Shown one piece after another: positions 16,903 through 63,598 of a stretch of 64,000 bases of DNA (positions are counted from its first letter, which is position 1; the number at the start of each line of letters is the position of its first letter). Made by a program: the position numbers and the translations under genes. The stretch covers positions 1 to 64,000 of the forward strand of contig CAIYSR010000139.1 in the NCBI GenBank assembly GCA_903928895.1, read 5' to 3'. The notes below the pieces were generated by a model that saw only the letters and a program-made list of their open reading frames with translations, was not told the origin of the DNA and did no database searches. This DNA comes from an uncultured Rhodospirillales bacterium (GTDB lineage: Bacteria; Pseudomonadota; Alphaproteobacteria; Acetobacterales; Acetobacteraceae).

Positions 16903-16915
16903 CGGCGTAGCTGGC

Positions 16916-16933
16916 GTCGGAATATTTTACACT
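16916..16933 (+). promoter_or_regulatory. Upstream box paired with the sigma-54 promoter (PEP-CTERM gene)
   Basis: GTCGGAATATTTTACACT is matched by GTCGGCAAATTTTACACT at 48433-48450 (16 of 18 positions). Each begins exactly 78 bases before the TGGCAC of a sigma-54 promoter. This is the right place for an enhancer-binding activator, for example a PrsR-type protein. Confidence 0.6.
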
Positions 16934-16993
16934 TTTTATTTAATTGCTATATCGTATTTGAAATTCATATTGTATTTCAATAATTAAGCGTTT

Positions 16994-17009
16994 TGGCACG
17001 AAAATTGCT
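16994..17009 (+). promoter_or_regulatory. Sigma-54 (-24/-12) promoter of the PEP-CTERM gene
   Basis: TGGCACGAAAATTGCT matches the RpoN consensus TGGCACG-N4-TTGCW, with GG and GC at the required 10-base spacing. Transcription should start near 17021, leaving a leader of about 45 bases with AGGGAGA before ATG 17066. The surrounding region is AT-rich in an otherwise GC-rich window. Confidence 0.8.
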
Positions 17010-17065: not shown

Positions 17066-17764
17066 ATGACGAACCCAGCCTTGACCCTCCTCGGTCGCCT
17101 GGCCGCCGTTGCCGTGCTGGCACTTGTCGCCGTGCCCGCCTCGGCGTCCACGCTGACGCAGAGCTTCACCCTCACCGGGAGCTTCGATGTCAACAGCATC
17201 GCCTTTGGCGCCCCGACCGCGCTGGTGTCGAACTCGTTCTTCGATGTGACCTTCATGCCGTTCGTCGGCAATGGTCTGACCTCGGCGGTCTTCACCTACG
17301 CGGACAGCGCCACCGGCACGATCACCGCCGGGCCTAACGGTGGCGGGACGTTTATCTATTTGTTCTCGAACGCGGTGCTCAATGACACGGGCGTCAACGT
17401 GGCCGGCGTAACTACGGACGGTAGCGGCGGCCCGAACAGTGTGAATTCGTTCTCCATCGGTTTTGCCGACACCTCGCGCGATTTGCTGGACAGCTACAGC
17501 CAGAGCGTCGGCTTCCCCGCGGTGGTCACGGGCTCCAGCCCCCTGCGGTTCACGCAGTATAACCCCGGCGGACCGGTGTTCTCCGCCCAAGGCGCCATCG
17601 GAGTGGCCGATGTGAGTTTCACCCTCACCACGACGGCCTCGCTGGTCTACACCTTCCAGGGAGACGGTGCGCTGCTCAGCCTGGATGTGCCGGAGCCGGC
17701 GTCGATGGCCCTGCTGGCGACCGGTTTGATCGGCGCCGGGATCGCGCGGCGCCGTCGCGCCTGA
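17066..17764 (+). CDS. PEP-CTERM sorting-domain exported protein
   Basis: The 232-residue protein has a Sec signal (about 1-27, ending PASAS) and a beta-rich middle (about 28-205) with many N, T, G and S residues. It ends VPEPASMALLATGLIGAGIA followed by RRRRA, the classic PEP-CTERM tripartite signal: VPEP motif, hydrophobic helix, Arg cluster. Exosortase recognises and removes this signal while exporting the protein to the surface or matrix. No exosortase gene is in the window. It is a single gene behind a sigma-54 promoter, with a terminator after it. Confidence 0.88.
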   Translation: MTNPALTLLGRLAAVAVLALVAVPASASTLTQSFTLTGSFDVNSIAFGAPTALVSNSFFDVTFMPFVGNGLTSAVFTYADSATGTITAGPNGGGTFIYLFSNAVLNDTGVNVAGVTTDGSGGPNSVNSFSIGFADTSRDLLDSYSQSVGFPAVVTGSSPLRFTQYNPGGPVFSAQGAIGVADVSFTLTTTASLVYTFQGDGALLSLDVPEPASMALLATGLIGAGIARRRRA

Positions 17765-47716: not shown

Positions 47717-48304
47717 ATGAGCCACGCCGCCTATGTGACCGACTATCTCGCCCACAGCGTGGCGGCGATGAACGCTTTCGCAGCCGATGGCACGCTCCAG
47801 GCGACGTTGCTCCGCATGGCCGAGGTGACCACCGCCGCGATGCGCGCCGGCGGCAAGCTGCTCATTGCTGGCAATGGTGGCAGCGCCGCTGACGCGCAGC
47901 ATATCGCCGGCGAATTTATCAGCCGTCTGATGTTCGACCACCCGCCGCTGCCTGCTATCGCGCTCACCACCGACACCTCGGCGCTGACCGCAACCGCAAA
48001 CGACTATGGCTATGAGCAGGTGTTCGAGCGCCAGGTGATCGCCCTTGGCCGCCGCGGCGACGTATTCCTTGGCATCTCCACCTCCGGCAACTCGCCCAAT
48101 GTGCTGCGCGCGCTCGCAGCCGCGCGGGCTCAGGGCCTCACCACGCTTGGGTTTGCCGGCAAGGGCGGCGGTAAGATGGCCGATCTGTGCGACCTGCTGC
48201 TCCCGGCGCCCTCGACCTGGACGCCGATCGTCCAGCAAATCCACATCACTGCGGCGCATATCTATTGTGCTGTCATTGAACGCGATATGTTTCCAAGAGC
48301 GTAG
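47717..48304 (+). CDS. gmhA: Phosphoheptose isomerase-like SIS protein
   Basis: The 195-residue SIS-domain protein has [64 protein letters not shown] and an [17 protein letters not shown]-type ending ([17 protein letters not shown]). These are the GmhA pattern with its zinc/active-site His. It converts sedoheptulose 7-phosphate to D-glycero-D-manno-heptose 7-phosphate for LPS heptose. This fits the two GT9 heptosyltransferase-like genes in the window. It is co-transcribed with lepA. Confidence 0.9.
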
Positions 48305-48432
48305 ACGCAAGACAGGAAGGAATATTCCCTCTATTTTTGGAACAACACCGGAATTCACGAATACGTGAATTGTCTTACCGAGATCTGTTCATCCCAAGTT
48401 TGTTGCTCTCTGCAACAAGGGTCGAACTGAAT
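48305..48432. other. Intergenic hairpins between gmhA and the sigma-54 promoter
   Basis: Two inverted repeats lie here: AATTCACG/CGTGAATT around AATA (48352-48371) and TTGTTGC/GCAACAA around TCTCT (48400-48418). Neither has a T tract. They may end the lepA-gmhA transcript or be protein-binding sites upstream of the regulator gene. No coding sequence is visible. Confidence 0.45.
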
Positions 48433-48450
48433 GTCGGCAAATTTTACACT
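48433..48450 (+). promoter_or_regulatory. Upstream box paired with the sigma-54 promoter (regulator gene)
   Basis: GTCGGCAAATTTTACACT matches the box at 16916-16933 in 16 of 18 positions and again begins 78 bases before TGGCAC. Confidence 0.6.
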
Positions 48451-48510
48451 GTTCAACCTGCCGCTCGATGGCGAGGCTGCGACTCGTTGAAAACCAAGCC
48501 AATTCATTTT

Positions 48511-48526
48511 TGGCACAAGAATTGCT
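48511..48526 (+). promoter_or_regulatory. Sigma-54 (-24/-12) promoter of the OmpR-type regulator
   Basis: TGGCACAAGAATTGCT fits the RpoN consensus with GG and GC at the right spacing. It is nearly the same as the promoter at 16994-17009. Transcription should start near 48538, with AGGAGGGG before ATG 48592. Confidence 0.78.
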
Positions 48527-48591
48527 TTAGACATTCCATCGCCAGCGAGGGCGGCAGCCGCCGCCGGGCGCTCTTTTTACAGGAGGGGTGC

Positions 48592-49335
48592 ATGAATAGG
48601 CTCTTGATCGTCGCCAACGACAACACGACGTCGCTGCGCATCGGCTTGGAGCTCGAACAGGGCGGCCTGTTCCATGCCACCATGACCTCAAACCTTACCG
48701 AGGCGGCTTCCCGCGGCACCAACGGCGCCGGGCAGTACGATGCCGTGCTCATCGTCGGCTCGCCGGCCACCCACAATCTTGCCGGCATGTGCGGCCGGGT
48801 GCGTCAGTTCTGGTCGAACTGCCCCATCGTCGTTCTGACCCACGCCGCTGACGAGGCCACCATCGTCACCACGCTCGACGCCGGCGCTGCCGACGTAATC
48901 CTTGCCCCGCACCGCAGCGCCGAACTGCGCGCCCGCCTCCAGGCCCATATCCGCGCCCACGCCAACAGTGCCGGCGTTTCATTCCAGATCGGCCCCTACC
49001 TTTTCCACCCCGCCACCCGCGTCCTTCGGCACGTGACCACGGGAGCCTCCCTGCGGCTGACCTACAAGGAAACCGAGGTGCTGAAATACCTCAACCGCAG
49101 CAACGGCCATGCCGTCGCCCGGTTGACTCTGCTGCGTGATGTGTGGGGCTACAAGGAAGGCGCTGACAGCTACACGGTGGAGTCCCACATCTACCGCCTG
49201 CGCCGCAAACTGGAGGCCGACCCGGCGCGCCCGCGCTTTCTCGTCAACGACGCTGGCGGCTACGCCCTCGTCTCCGCGCCGCCGCGTCCATGGCCGCCGG
49301 CCCGCGCCCAGGCCGGTATGCAACTCGCCGGCTGA
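48592..49335 (+). CDS. OmpR-type regulator with degenerate receiver domain
   Basis: The 247-residue protein has a receiver-like fold (about 1-120) and a winged-helix DNA-binding domain (about 130-230) with LRLTYKETEVLKYLNRS, LLRDVWGYKEGADSYTVESH and IYRLRRKLE. The receiver lacks the phospho-acceptor: the expected Asp after beta-3 is Val55 (YDAVLIVGS). Only one acidic residue remains in VANDN, and the conserved Lys is Ala (VILAP). It probably acts without phosphorylation. AGGAGGGG and a sigma-54 promoter precede it. ATG 48592 is preferred over longer starts that would run through the promoter. Confidence 0.8.
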   Translation: MNRLLIVANDNTTSLRIGLELEQGGLFHATMTSNLTEAASRGTNGAGQYDAVLIVGSPATHNLAGMCGRVRQFWSNCPIVVLTHAADEATIVTTLDAGAADVILAPHRSAELRARLQAHIRAHANSAGVSFQIGPYLFHPATRVLRHVTTGASLRLTYKETEVLKYLNRSNGHAVARLTLLRDVWGYKEGADSYTVESHIYRLRRKLEADPARPRFLVNDAGGYALVSAPPRPWPPARAQAGMQLAG

Positions 49336-58809: not shown

Positions 58810-59589
58810 TTACACCTGATCGAGATGAAGGCTGTAGCCCTGCCCGCGGATCGACTGGATCAACCGCCGCCCATCGTCGCCGTCGGCGAGCTTGCGGCGG
58901 AGCGCGAAGATGATCTGGTCGATCGCCCGATCCTCGAAGTTCATCGGCCGCCGCAGCGCCACCTCGAACAACCGCTCCCGCGCCACCGCCGCCCCGTTGG
59001 CATCAACCAATTGCTCCAGCACGGTGAACTCCGCCGCCGTGATATGGATGGCCTCGCCGTCGGCCGAAATGGCTTGCCGCCGCACCAGGTCAACCTGGGC
59101 GCGGCCGATCCTCATCGCCGGCCGCGGCCTCGGCTTTGCCGACACCGCCGCCTCCTCCGGCACCTCCGCCTCCACTGCCGGCGCATGGCGCGACCCGGCG
59201 CGGCGATGTACCGCATGGATGCGGGCGATCAGCTCGCGGACGCTCGGCGGCTTGGTCACATAATCATCCGCCCCCAGTTCCAGCGCCGCCACTCGGTCCG
59301 CCTCCTCGGTATGGCCGGACACGACAATGATCCCGCAATCGCCCTTCGCCACCAGCCAGCGGATCAATGACAGCCCGCTGGTATCGGGCAAGCCGAGGTC
59401 AACCAGCGCGACATGGGGGTCAAACCGGGTCTTGAGCTCGATCGCGGCCGCCCCGGTCGCCGCCCATGCCGTTTCCATCCCATCGCGCTCGACCACGACC
59501 TTCAGCGCCTGTGCGATCTCGGGCTGATCCTCAATAATGAGCACCCGCAGCCGCAACAGGGCATCGAACTCGGTGCTCTCGTTAACCAT
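58810..59589 (-). CDS. OmpR-family response regulator
   Basis: The 259-residue protein has a canonical receiver: acidic pair E20-D21, phospho-acceptor D64 in LVDLGLPDTSG, Ser in VVSGHTEE and Lys in DDYVTKPPS. After a Pro/Ala linker (about 135-155) a winged-helix domain follows, with ITAAEFTVLEQLVDANGAAV and DRAIDQIIFALRRKLADGDD. It faces the histidine kinase further right, its likely partner. ATG 59589 is chosen; the upstream extension is AT-rich intergenic sequence. Confidence 0.88.
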   Translation of the reverse strand: MVNESTEFDALLRLRVLIIEDQPEIAQALKVVVERDGMETAWAATGAAAIELKTRFDPHVALVDLGLPDTSGLSLIRWLVAKGDCGIIVVSGHTEEADRVAALELGADDYVTKPPSVRELIARIHAVHRRAGSRHAPAVEAEVPEEAAVSAKPRPRPAMRIGRAQVDLVRRQAISADGEAIHITAAEFTVLEQLVDANGAAVARERLFEVALRRPMNFEDRAIDQIIFALRRKLADGDDGRRLIQSIRGQGYSLHLDQV

Positions 59590-59765
59590 TGGGAACCAAT
59601 ATGAAACTTTTCGATTTCTAGCTATCCAACTTACCACCGCCGTGGCATCGCGCTCAAGGCGCAAGATCGCATGGCACCGGGACTGTCAGGTGATGTCAGA
59701 TCACTCGACACTTCATAAGCTTTCCTGACTGGGGTCCGCCGCCGCTGCCCGTATAAAATCCGCTG

Positions 59766-60379: not shown

Positions 60380-60490
60380 CTGCTCGACCTTGCCACACCG
60401 CGTTGCCACACGGATGGATTCGCTTGTAGTGTATGACACTGGTGAAGGTGTCGTTAATCATGCGCCAAATCCGTGCCGGGCGGGCCTGAT

Positions 60491-63400
60491 ATGGCAGAGG
60501 CAGGCCACCGCGCATGGCGTCAACGCCTCGCCATCGCCGCCGTCATCCTGGTACTCGCGTTTGCCACCGTCGCCGTCGCCTACGCGGCCTTCAAATCCCT
60601 CGCCCACGATCTCGGCCACGCCGCCCGCCAGGACCTCATCGCCAGTCTGAGCCTGCGCAGCGAACAGATCGAGGGCACCCTCGCCGAGCACAAAAGGTCG
60701 GCCGCGCTCTTCGCCACGCGCGGCTCGGTGCAGTTGCAACTCGACCCTGACAGCACCGAGGACGCCCGGGCCACGTCCCGTACGATCACCGAGCACACGA
60801 TCGCGGACTTCAAGCGGCTCTTTCAATACGACAACATCATTCTCCTCGACACCGAGATGCATCCCGTGACCGGCGTCGGCCAGGCGCTGACGCATAGGGC
60901 CGAGATCACGGGTGTCGGCCAGGCCCTGGTGACCGGCGAGATCCAACTCATCGACCTCCATATCGAGACCAACCAGCGCGCCTCCTTTGGCATCGCCGTG
61001 CCGGTGCGTCCGCGTCATCGCCCGGGCGCCGCCCCGATCGGCGTCGCCTATCTCGAACTCGGCACCGCCGGCCCGACAAGCGCTTTGGTCAATCCCTGGG
61101 CATCGTCACATGGGTCTCTCGAACTGGCGTTGCTTCGCCGCAACGGCCTTTCCGTCGACATCATGTCCCTGGCGAGAGATCGCGGCAATCCGCTCTGGCG
61201 GGTGAGTTCGCTCTCGCTGCAAGCTACCACCCACGTGGCGGTGGCCGCCCTGCTCGATCCATCCGGCGAGCTGCTCGAAGCCGTTGACGAGCATAACCAT
61301 CCCGTCATCGCCGTCGCTGCCGCCGTCACTGGCACGCCCTGGGTGCTGCTCGCCAAGATCGACCGTGCCGAGATCGACGCCCCGGTGCGCCAGCTCGGCC
61401 GCAACATCGCCGCCCTCGTCGGTGGGCTGCTCGGCGTCCTGTTCCTGTTCGGCGTCCTGCTCTGGCGCGACGACCACCACCGCCACATCCTCGCCGAGGC
61501 GATGCTCGCCCGGCGCTACGCCTCGGCAATCAGCGGCATGCAGGATGGCTTCCTGCGCATCGACCCGACCGGCTGCATCGTCGATGCCAACGAGGCCGTC
61601 ACGGTGATGACCGGCTACAGCCGCGACGAACTGCTGGCCCTCTCCCTCGCCGACCTCGCGGCGCCCGGCACCGTTATCAGCGAGGCAGTTGGCCCAGGCA
61701 CGCGCCGGTTCCAAACCACCTGGGCGACACGCGCCGGGAGGTTGATCGACATCGATGGGAGCGGCACCTTTGTCAGTGAAGGCGCAGCCGGCCACACCTA
61801 CATCATTGCCCGAGATATCACGGTCCAGCTCACCGAACAGCGCCGCCTGGAGCGGCTCAACCGCTTTCACGGCCTCATCAACCACATCTACCAGATCATC
61901 CAGCGGCTGACCGATCCGCAGGAGATCCTCCGCGAAATCTGCACTGACCTTGTGGTCAGCAGCCGTATCGCCCTGGTCTGGGCCGGTTGGGTCGACCATG
62001 CCGCCGGCCGGGTCGTCCCGATCGCCGCCAGCGGGGTCGCGAGCGACTATATCCGCGACCTGGAAATCACCCTCGACCCGTCGCTGCCGACCAGCCACGG
62101 GCCGACCGGTCGCGCCGTGCTGGAAGGCCGTATCGTCGTCTCCCAGTTCATGCGACAGGATCCGGATACGGCGCCTTGGCGCGCCAAGGCGGAACCCTGG
62201 GGCTTCGGTTCGGTGATCTGCATGCCCATCGTGGTCAACGGCCAACCCATCGCGGTGCTGTCGATCTACAGCTCCGAAACCGGACATTTCGACGACCAGG
62301 TGCTCGATCTGTTCCGCGGCATGGGCGAGACCATCTCGGTGGCCATCGAAGCTGCCGAGGGCCGCCGCGCCGCCGAGCGGCTTGAGCGCCTGCACGCGAC
62401 CAATGAGGAGCGGCTGCGTCGCATCCTTCAGGCCTTGCCGGTGCCGATGATGGTCCACTCGGCCCGGAGCGATGAAATCCGCAGCGTCAACGCCGCGTTC
62501 GAGGCTCTTTTCGGCTACGACCCGGCCCGTACTCTTACGGTATCCCGCTGGCTCGACGAGGCTTGCATCGACGCCGACGAGCGTGCCCTTTATCGCGAGC
62601 TGCGGGCTCCGAGCATCGCCCGCGCCGATGCCGGTGGCGCCCCCGTGCGCCTGCCCGAGCTCCGCCTGCGCGGGCGTGACGGCACGGAGCGCGTCGTGCT
62701 GCCCCATCTCTCACGGGCAGATGACGAGGAACTGCTCGCCTGGACGGACATCACCGAGACCCGCGCACAGCAGCAGGCCCTGCGCCGACGCGAGGACATC
62801 TACACCGCTATCGTCGATCGGAGCATCGATTCGATCGCCCTCATCCGCGCCGCTGACGGTACTTTCGCCGAATTCAACACCGCCGCCCACACCTCGCTCG
62901 GCTATACCCGCGCCGAGTTCGCTGCCCTGCGGGTTCGCGACATCGATCCGGACTTCAACGACTCCTACATCGCCCGCCACGTTGCGGCACTGCCCCCCGG
63001 GGGTGGCACCGTGTTCGAGCGGGTCAACCGCCGGCGCGACGGCGCCCTGCGCGATGTCCGCCTCAGCCTGAGCCGGATCACCGTCGGTGACGAAGACTAT
63101 TTCGCCGTCATCTGGTCCGACATCACCGAGGACCGCCGACGCGTGCGCGCTGCCGCCGCGGAAGGTGAAAAGCACCGCATCCTGTTCGACAGCGCGGCCG
63201 ACGGCATTGCCGTGGTCGGCGCCGACGCGCGCATCGTCGAGGCCAATCCCGCCATGCTGGCGATGGCCGGCGCCACGGCAGACCAGTTCATCGGCACTCT
63301 GACGTGGCAATGGAGTGCCAACACCGAGGAACACGCACGGTGGCAGAGCGCGCATGACAACCTCCGCCTCGGCATCCGTGTGAACCATCGCCTGCGCCGC

Positions 63401-63598
63401 CAGGACGGCACCGAGTTCGAGGCCGAGCTGATGTGGAACAAGGCCGAGTTCGACGGCGAAACCCTCTACTATGTCACCGTCACGATATCACCGACCGGCT
63501 CCGCGCCGAGCAGGAGCTGCGCCGCGCCGAGCGCCTCACCGTCATCGGCCAGCTCACCGGCGGTATCGCGCACGACTTCAACAACCTGCTCACCGTGA
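60491..63598 (+). CDS. Multi-sensor PAS/GAF histidine kinase, N-terminal part up to a frameshift
   Basis: About 996 natural residues are encoded before the frame breaks near 63480. The layout is membrane helix (13-35), extracytoplasmic sensor (about 36-304), second helix (305-326), PAS (about 336-450) and GAF (about 455-633). Three more PAS domains follow (about 636-760, 765-880 and 891-995). The start of the kinase core is in the next frame (see the entry at 63484). The last 40 codons up to 63598 are shadow sequence. ATG 60491 is used; GTG 60473 is possible. Confidence 0.85.
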   Translation: MAEAGHRAWRQRLAIAAVILVLAFATVAVAYAAFKSLAHDLGHAARQDLIASLSLRSEQIEGTLAEHKRSAALFATRGSVQLQLDPDSTEDARATSRTITEHTIADFKRLFQYDNIILLDTEMHPVTGVGQALTHRAEITGVGQALVTGEIQLIDLHIETNQRASFGIAVPVRPRHRPGAAPIGVAYLELGTAGPTSALVNPWASSHGSLELALLRRNGLSVDIMSLARDRGNPLWRVSSLSLQATTHVAVAALLDPSGELLEAVDEHNHPVIAVAAAVTGTPWVLLAKIDRAEIDAPVRQLGRNIAALVGGLLGVLFLFGVLLWRDDHHRHILAEAMLARRYASAISGMQDGFLRIDPTGCIVDANEAVTVMTGYSRDELLALSLADLAAPGTVISEAVGPGTRRFQTTWATRAGRLIDIDGSGTFVSEGAAGHTYIIARDITVQLTEQRRLERLNRFHGLINHIYQIIQRLTDPQEILREICTDLVVSSRIALVWAGWVDHAAGRVVPIAASGVASDYIRDLEITLDPSLPTSHGPTGRAVLEGRIVVSQFMRQDPDTAPWRAKAEPWGFGSVICMPIVVNGQPIAVLSIYSSETGHFDDQVLDLFRGMGETISVAIEAAEGRRAAERLERLHATNEERLRRILQALPVPMMVHSARSDEIRSVNAAFEALFGYDPARTLTVSRWLDEACIDADERALYRELRAPSIARADAGGAPVRLPELRLRGRDGTERVVLPHLSRADDEELLAWTDITETRAQQQALRRREDIYTAIVDRSIDSIALIRAADGTFAEFNTAAHTSLGYTRAEFAALRVRDIDPDFNDSYIARHVAALPPGGGTVFERVNRRRDGALRDVRLSLSRITVGDEDYFAVIWSDITEDRRRVRAAAAEGEKHRILFDSAADGIAVVGADARIVEANPAMLAMAGATADQFIGTLTWQWSANTEEHARWQSAHDNLRLGIRVNHRLRRQDGTEFEAELMWNKAEFDGETLYYVTVTISPTGSAPSRSCAAPSASPSSASSPAVSRTTSTTCSP

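Follow-up and report, generated by a model that had tools for sequence, protein, structure and literature searches.

A candidate OmpR-type member with a degenerate receiver in the PrsK/PrsR-sigma-54 regulon of an uncultured Acetobacteraceae bacterium

The closest described system is the PrsK/PrsR-sigma-54 regulon of PEP-CTERM genes. In Haft 2006 (PMC1569441; TIGR02915/TIGR02916), motif 1 and the sigma-54 element are predicted as the PrsR sites. Motif 1 is described there as a 17-nt sequence that ends in TTTACA and lies at a mean spacer of 62.8 nt from the -24/-12 element, and a few motif 1 sites are mentioned before other, non-PEP-CTERM genes. Independent support for PrsR-type control comes from D. 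vulgaris, whose PEP-CTERM regulator DVUA0057 bound predicted PEP-CTERM targets in vitro by DAP-chip (PMC3333781), and from the RpoN dependence of pepA in Aquincola (PMC9850573). A second known kind of protein concerned here is the pseudo-receiver, which accounts for about 6-13% of receivers; the way in which pseudo-receivers are switched is mostly unknown and an open question, control of their synthesis being one proposed way (PMC12632262). In this study we describe a gene that joins these two known kinds and is not a new class. In the open-licence literature searched, we found no OmpR-type regulator described as part of the PrsR regulon.

The gene lies at 48592..49335 (+) of the window, the whole stretch of 64,000 nucleotides that was analysed, and encodes a 247-residue OmpR/PhoB-type regulator with a degenerate receiver, as assigned from its open reading frame, Pfam, alignment and AlphaFold2. 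It starts with ATG, 5' of which stands a good ribosome-binding site, AGGAGGGG (48581..48588, +), conserved in the sister species G208. Its neighbours are lepA, a gmhA-like phosphoheptose isomerase gene (47717..48304, +) that is its conserved upstream neighbour, a gene whose protein has no family matches, aroC and fabI; no kinase gene was found among them, in agreement with the original prediction. Residues 131-228 (48982..49275, +) form a winged-helix DNA-binding domain by Pfam and in the model. This OmpR-type domain had been described as fully functional in appearance, and it is intact, with a Trans_reg_C (PF00486) score of 61.2 bits for a cut-off of 26.2. The Response_reg score reaches only 25.0 bits, below the cut-off of 30.2. 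The C-terminus, PPARAQAGMQLAG, does not carry the tripartite PEP-TM-Arg signal of PEP-CTERM proteins, and the position of the gene is absent from the list of PEP-CTERM genes of the genome. About 10 kb away, a canonical OmpR-type regulator (58810-59637, -) and a PAS/GAF-rich protein (60473-63598, +) possibly make up a two-component pair.

The receiver (residues 1-123; 48592..48960, +) lacks the residues of phosphotransfer. In alignments with relatives, the canonical acidic pair (E9/D10 in PhoB) is replaced by Ala8/Asn9, the acceptor Asp by Val55 (codon 48754..48756, +, at the C-terminal end of beta-3), the Tyr of the Y-T coupling (K-3) by Val102, and the switch Lys by Ala105; Thr83 is retained, this position being Ala in the G208 and G165 orthologues. 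The acidic pocket had been predicted to be reduced to one Asp: Asp10 is present, but it stands one residue past the canonical pair, which is wholly lost. An alternative register, shifted by one residue (Asn9/Asp10), is possible for the beta-1 acidic pair; the idea that an acceptor Asp might be regained through another register was rejected, since only the beta-1 pair has such an alternative.

An AlphaFold2 model was built from five sequences, and its mean pLDDT of 71.8 and pTM of 0.55 make the packing of the domains unreliable. Within the receiver, pLDDT is mostly 64-85, with a weak stretch near residues 91-100. Residues 2-8, 51-55, 79-84 and 101-105 are modelled as beta-1, -3, -4 and -5, and the five receiver strands end at residues 8, 32, 55, 84 and 105, so that Val55 and Ala105 fall at the classical acceptor and Lys sites, where the original prediction had placed them. 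An Asp at the acceptor site, for which a structural check had been set beforehand, is seen in no alignment or model. The modelled N-terminus adopts a (beta-alpha)5 receiver fold, with Foldseek TM scores (target) of 0.71-0.79 to isolated receivers. Matches to the model are OmpR-type regulators, including the atypical CosR, RitR and HP1043. Like HP1043/HsrA (2hqr), CosR (8uvk), ChxR and RitR (5u8m), the protein combines a receiver fold without phosphotransfer residues with a winged helix; it is not orthologous to them, its best PDB sequence relatives being the canonical RegX3, MtrA and KdpE, and for these four atypical proteins control by an enhancer-binding protein and sigma-54 was not found described in the literature searched. 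Judged from the sequence and all alignments, phosphorylation through the usual Asp is excluded. To this extent the predicted phosphorylation-independent protein stands, whereas its activity without phosphate we only infer.

The promoter of the gene is of the two-part type known from the PrsR regulon. Its sigma-54 -24/-12 element, TGGCACAAGAATTGCT (48511..48526, +), has zero mismatches (24.9 bits for the 20-bp matrix window) and is one of five perfect TTGGCACN5TTGCW sites in the 5.57-Mb genome, with none in the control; the sigma-54 site of the original prediction is real, and belongs to a composite promoter. The sequence TGTCGGCAAATTTTACAC, 61 bp 5' of this site, is the known motif 1, the predicted PrsR box of proteobacterial PEP-CTERM genes, and the PEP-CTERM-box or predicted PrsR upstream activating site, AATGTCGGCAAATTTTACACTG, spans 48430..48451 (+; 27.9 bits; motif 1 of PMC1569441). 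Motif 1 is intergenic and at its usual distance from the -24/-12 element, the spacer being 61 nt here versus about 63 nt in Haft 2006. A composite-promoter matrix was derived from 17 PEP-CTERM promoters of this genome, leaving out the regulator. It gives the promoter of the regulator 52.8 bits, inside the training range of 45.7-56.4; the best score in 30 Markov-1 simulated 64-kb windows was 17.5 bits. Only one other strong composite site occurs in the window (56.4 bits, in the training set). It precedes a PEP-CTERM protein gene (17066..17764, +) and consists of a PEP-CTERM-box at 16913..16934 (+; 29.5 bits) and the sigma-54 site TGGCACGAAAATTGCT at 16994..17009 (+). This gene is 31 kb from the regulator; a tie to PEP-CTERM through neighbourhood was therefore rejected, the link being the shared promoter. 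In an alignment with the G208 intergenic region, islands of conservation stand out from a diverged background, namely the PEP-CTERM-box, the -24/-12 site, the ribosome-binding site and a palindrome (AATTCACGAATACGTGAATT, 48352..48371; position kept in G208, weaker form in G111 and G165). By eye, a TTGAWT element is also seen about 24 bp 5' of the -24 element in PEP-CTERM promoters and near 48487 in the window; its distance to -24 stays the same where the PEP-CTERM-box is displaced by one helical turn, and it is perhaps an IHF site or a second activator half-site.

Comparison of promoters revealed that the sigma-54 sites of PEP-CTERM genes share the upstream box TGTCRGNAAATTTTACAC, whose offset takes either of two values that differ by about a helical turn (composites of length 72-74 and 83-84), and that the regulator and its G208 orthologue both carry it. 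A genome-wide search with the strict pattern TTTACA-N40-66-GGCAYN5TTGCW, to which a relaxed pattern could add others, gave 20 matches in the genome under study and 14 in G208, with 0 control matches in both. Eighteen of the 20 lie before PEP-CTERM genes (among them one on contig C52 whose signal is below the Pfam cut-off), one before a PEP-CTERM-like gene on contig C30 (...APGSLVLLAGALGGLVAARRR...) and one before the regulator; in G208 the corresponding numbers are 12 of 14 for PEP-CTERM genes, one for the regulator orthologue and one for a site cut by a contig end. In both species, no identified gene of the strict composite set other than the regulator is a non-PEP-CTERM gene. The genome furthermore holds a true PrsR (626 bits; cut-off 502.6), the exosortase XrtA (275 bits; cut-off 208) and 53 PEP-CTERM matches over cut-off, and the promoters suggest that rpoN is present as well. 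The PEP-CTERM-box is absent from the PrsK/PrsR cluster and from the second exosortase-like gene. Co-regulation with a PEP-CTERM gene, as first proposed for the regulator, is thus far more strongly indicated than had been claimed, through the full box and -24/-12 element of the PrsR regulon in two species. The members described for that regulon in Haft 2006 are PEP-CTERM genes, whereas the additional member here codes for a transcription factor and is conserved in both species.

Relatives of the regulator are common, being found at E <= 1e-30 in 233 of 249 family genomes, mostly at about 40% identity. The best-scoring ones examined keep the full DD/D/T/K set; this residue-level reading covers best-scoring relatives only, and further degenerate members may exist among the lower-scoring ones. 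The genome itself has two canonical full-length relatives, on contigs C55 and C9, which share 40-42% identity over most of the length and the same winged-helix signature with the regulator, but differ from it in having a complete DD/D/T/K set and no composite promoter, as no match to the composite matrix was found before either gene. Among the relatives so read, degenerate receivers were found only in the regulator, in G208 (67% identity), G165 (54%) and G111 (frameshifted), and in a divergent homologue from another genus, G018. The degeneracy is common to all four orthologues of the genus, of which the three intact ones group together in the tree (support 100/100). The regulator follows gmhA in its own genome, G165 and G111, and its downstream genes are common with G208; this synteny supports orthology within the genus. 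The G018 homologue (L085, G018:C53:4751-5692; receiver GSG/S/T/C) was rejected as a true orthologue, since its synteny differs and the tree leaves its placement undecided (AU p = 0.33). A distant homologue in a MAG (L009) has a much shortened receiver before the same winged-helix signature.

The genus sample comprises five species, all draft genomes. PrsR and exosortase are both present in the genome under study (53 PEP-CTERM matches over cut-off; regulator with box), in G208 (42 PEP-CTERM; regulator with box) and in G165 (9 PEP-CTERM; regulator without box). Neither PrsR over cut-off nor exosortase was found in G111, which has 8 PEP-CTERM matches, 4 composite sites and the frameshifted regulator (L103, G111:C108; the frameshift falls in the DNA-binding domain). 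G020 has exosortase and 2 PEP-CTERM matches; PrsR over cut-off and the orthologue were not found there. Promoters of the homologues score 43.0 bits in G208, 9.1 in G165, -10.7 in G111 and 1.9 in G018, a genome in which exosortase, PrsR and PEP-CTERM were not detected. As to co-occurrence with exosortase, which the original prediction had set as a check, the orthologue is intact in three exosortase-positive species and frameshifted in G111, where no exosortase was found; there is a divergent homologue in G018, where none was detected, and no orthologue was found in exosortase-positive G020. Absences and the G111 frameshift may be assembly faults of the drafts. This distribution agrees with a regulator linked to the PrsR regulon and placed under sigma-54 control in the two PEP-CTERM-rich species, although five species are too few for statistical proof. 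The sigma-54 promoter is missing in PrsR-positive G165, so that this wiring does not hold throughout the genus.

Between the regulator and its G208 orthologue, dN/dS is 0.35/1.23 for the receiver and 0.17/0.71 for the DNA-binding domain, with identities of 57% and 77%. The NG86 ratios, about 0.29 and 0.24, compare with about 0.15-0.16 in both domains of the C55 paralogue, and the receiver therefore evolves fast yet constrained. These values point to purifying selection on both domains.

Taken together, our data make it likely that the protein is a transcriptional regulator which itself belongs to the PrsK/PrsR-sigma-54 regulon serving the PEP-CTERM/exosortase A system, and part of a two-tier cascade. 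By analogy with the family, PrsK would phosphorylate PrsR, which would bind the TGTCGG-AATTTTACAC box 61 bp 5' of the -24 element and drive sigma-54 transcription of the regulator plus about 20 PEP-CTERM genes; the promoter for this step is visible in the sequence, and RpoN dependence is presumed. Having lost the acceptor, the acidic pair, the switch Lys and the Tyr, the product, predicted to fold as a (beta-alpha)5 pseudo-receiver followed by an intact winged helix, would need no phosphate and would be active once made, acting on further promoters. Phosphorylation of PrsR would govern the upper tier, and synthesis of the regulator the lower. Loss of the acceptor and a PEP-CTERM-type promoter, behind which no other regulator was found, indicate that the protein is probably switched on by synthesis, as a second step of surface-matrix control. 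The likely switch of this pseudo-receiver could thus be read in its promoter, the protein probably being made only with the PEP-CTERM set, and the candidate cascade fits well with the proposed control of pseudo-receivers through synthesis. Since the PrsR regulon would thereby gain a transcription factor, it may reach beyond surface proteins. More tentatively, the PEP-CTERM/exosortase programme might have a second dedicated tier, in which an OmpR-type protein abandoned phosphorylation and came to be turned on and off by a PrsR/sigma-54 promoter instead, so that synthesis of matrix proteins and a further gene set would be switched in order by one signal.

The predicted joint synthesis with the PEP-CTERM genes would also suit a feedback regulator that acts back on PEP-CTERM/EPS genes, for instance as an output-limiting repressor, with no separate second tier. 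The palindrome conserved in the upstream region of the regulator would agree with autoregulation, although most OmpR-type proteins usually bind direct repeats. The PEP-CTERM promoters inspected did not show this palindrome, nor was a second motif common to them noticed beyond the PEP-CTERM-box, the TTGAWT element and the -24/-12 element; we consider feedback a doubtful, if reasonable, alternative. Purifying selection on the receiver suggests that it is more than a tether for the DNA-binding domain, and it may be a sensor that responds to a ligand, to a partner protein or to a covalent change of another kind, with synthesis setting only the amount. Direct and protein-partner mechanisms for pseudo-receivers are listed in a 2025 review (PMC12632262), but no partner gene adjoins the regulator or was seen conserved with it, and the receiver is less conserved than the DNA-binding domain, which makes such a sensor unlikely.

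Pairing through the receiver with the canonical C55 paralogue, whose output would thereby be altered, is quite improbable. The alpha4-beta5-alpha5 face of the regulator keeps Asp101, Glu111 and Arg115, a supported branch (98/98) of the DNA-binding-domain tree does not separate it from the C55 paralogues, and heterodimers of atypical regulators such as BldM-WhiI are known; against this, position 117 is Gln in the regulator and the recognition-helix region has slightly diverged (TVESHIYRLRRKLE vs TVETHIYRLRRKIE). Long branches and the frameshift in G111 would be expected of a decaying response-regulator duplicate that came by chance to lie behind a sigma-54 promoter and has no regulatory role. 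This explanation is very improbable: three species keep the open reading frame, dN is lower than dS for each domain, and the full composite promoter and ribosome-binding site are conserved in two species. Synthesis-controlled action in a two-tier cascade is thus the reading that we prefer.

Contig C111 of the genome under study (L086:7667-8823) has a perfect sigma-54 site that lacks a PEP-CTERM-box. It lies 5' of a small open reading frame of 77 residues, whose start resembles a signal peptide, and of a weak exosortase-like gene (PF09721, 28.3 bits); this is possibly a second sortase dedicated to a single substrate and served by another enhancer-binding protein. A further perfect sigma-54 site without PEP-CTERM-box is present at C104:1649 (L010). 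The palindrome TTCACGNNNNCGTGAA lies between gmhA and the regulator (48352-48371), at G208:C150:231, and after gmhA in G111 and G165, and is partly conserved even where the sigma-54 site is not; it is a possible operator. A genome search located it at five distinct places in the genome under study and one in G208, before the orthologue, the other matches being inside coding sequence. On contig C11 (L172) of the genome under study, a further copy stands 5' of a gene for an OmpR-type protein.
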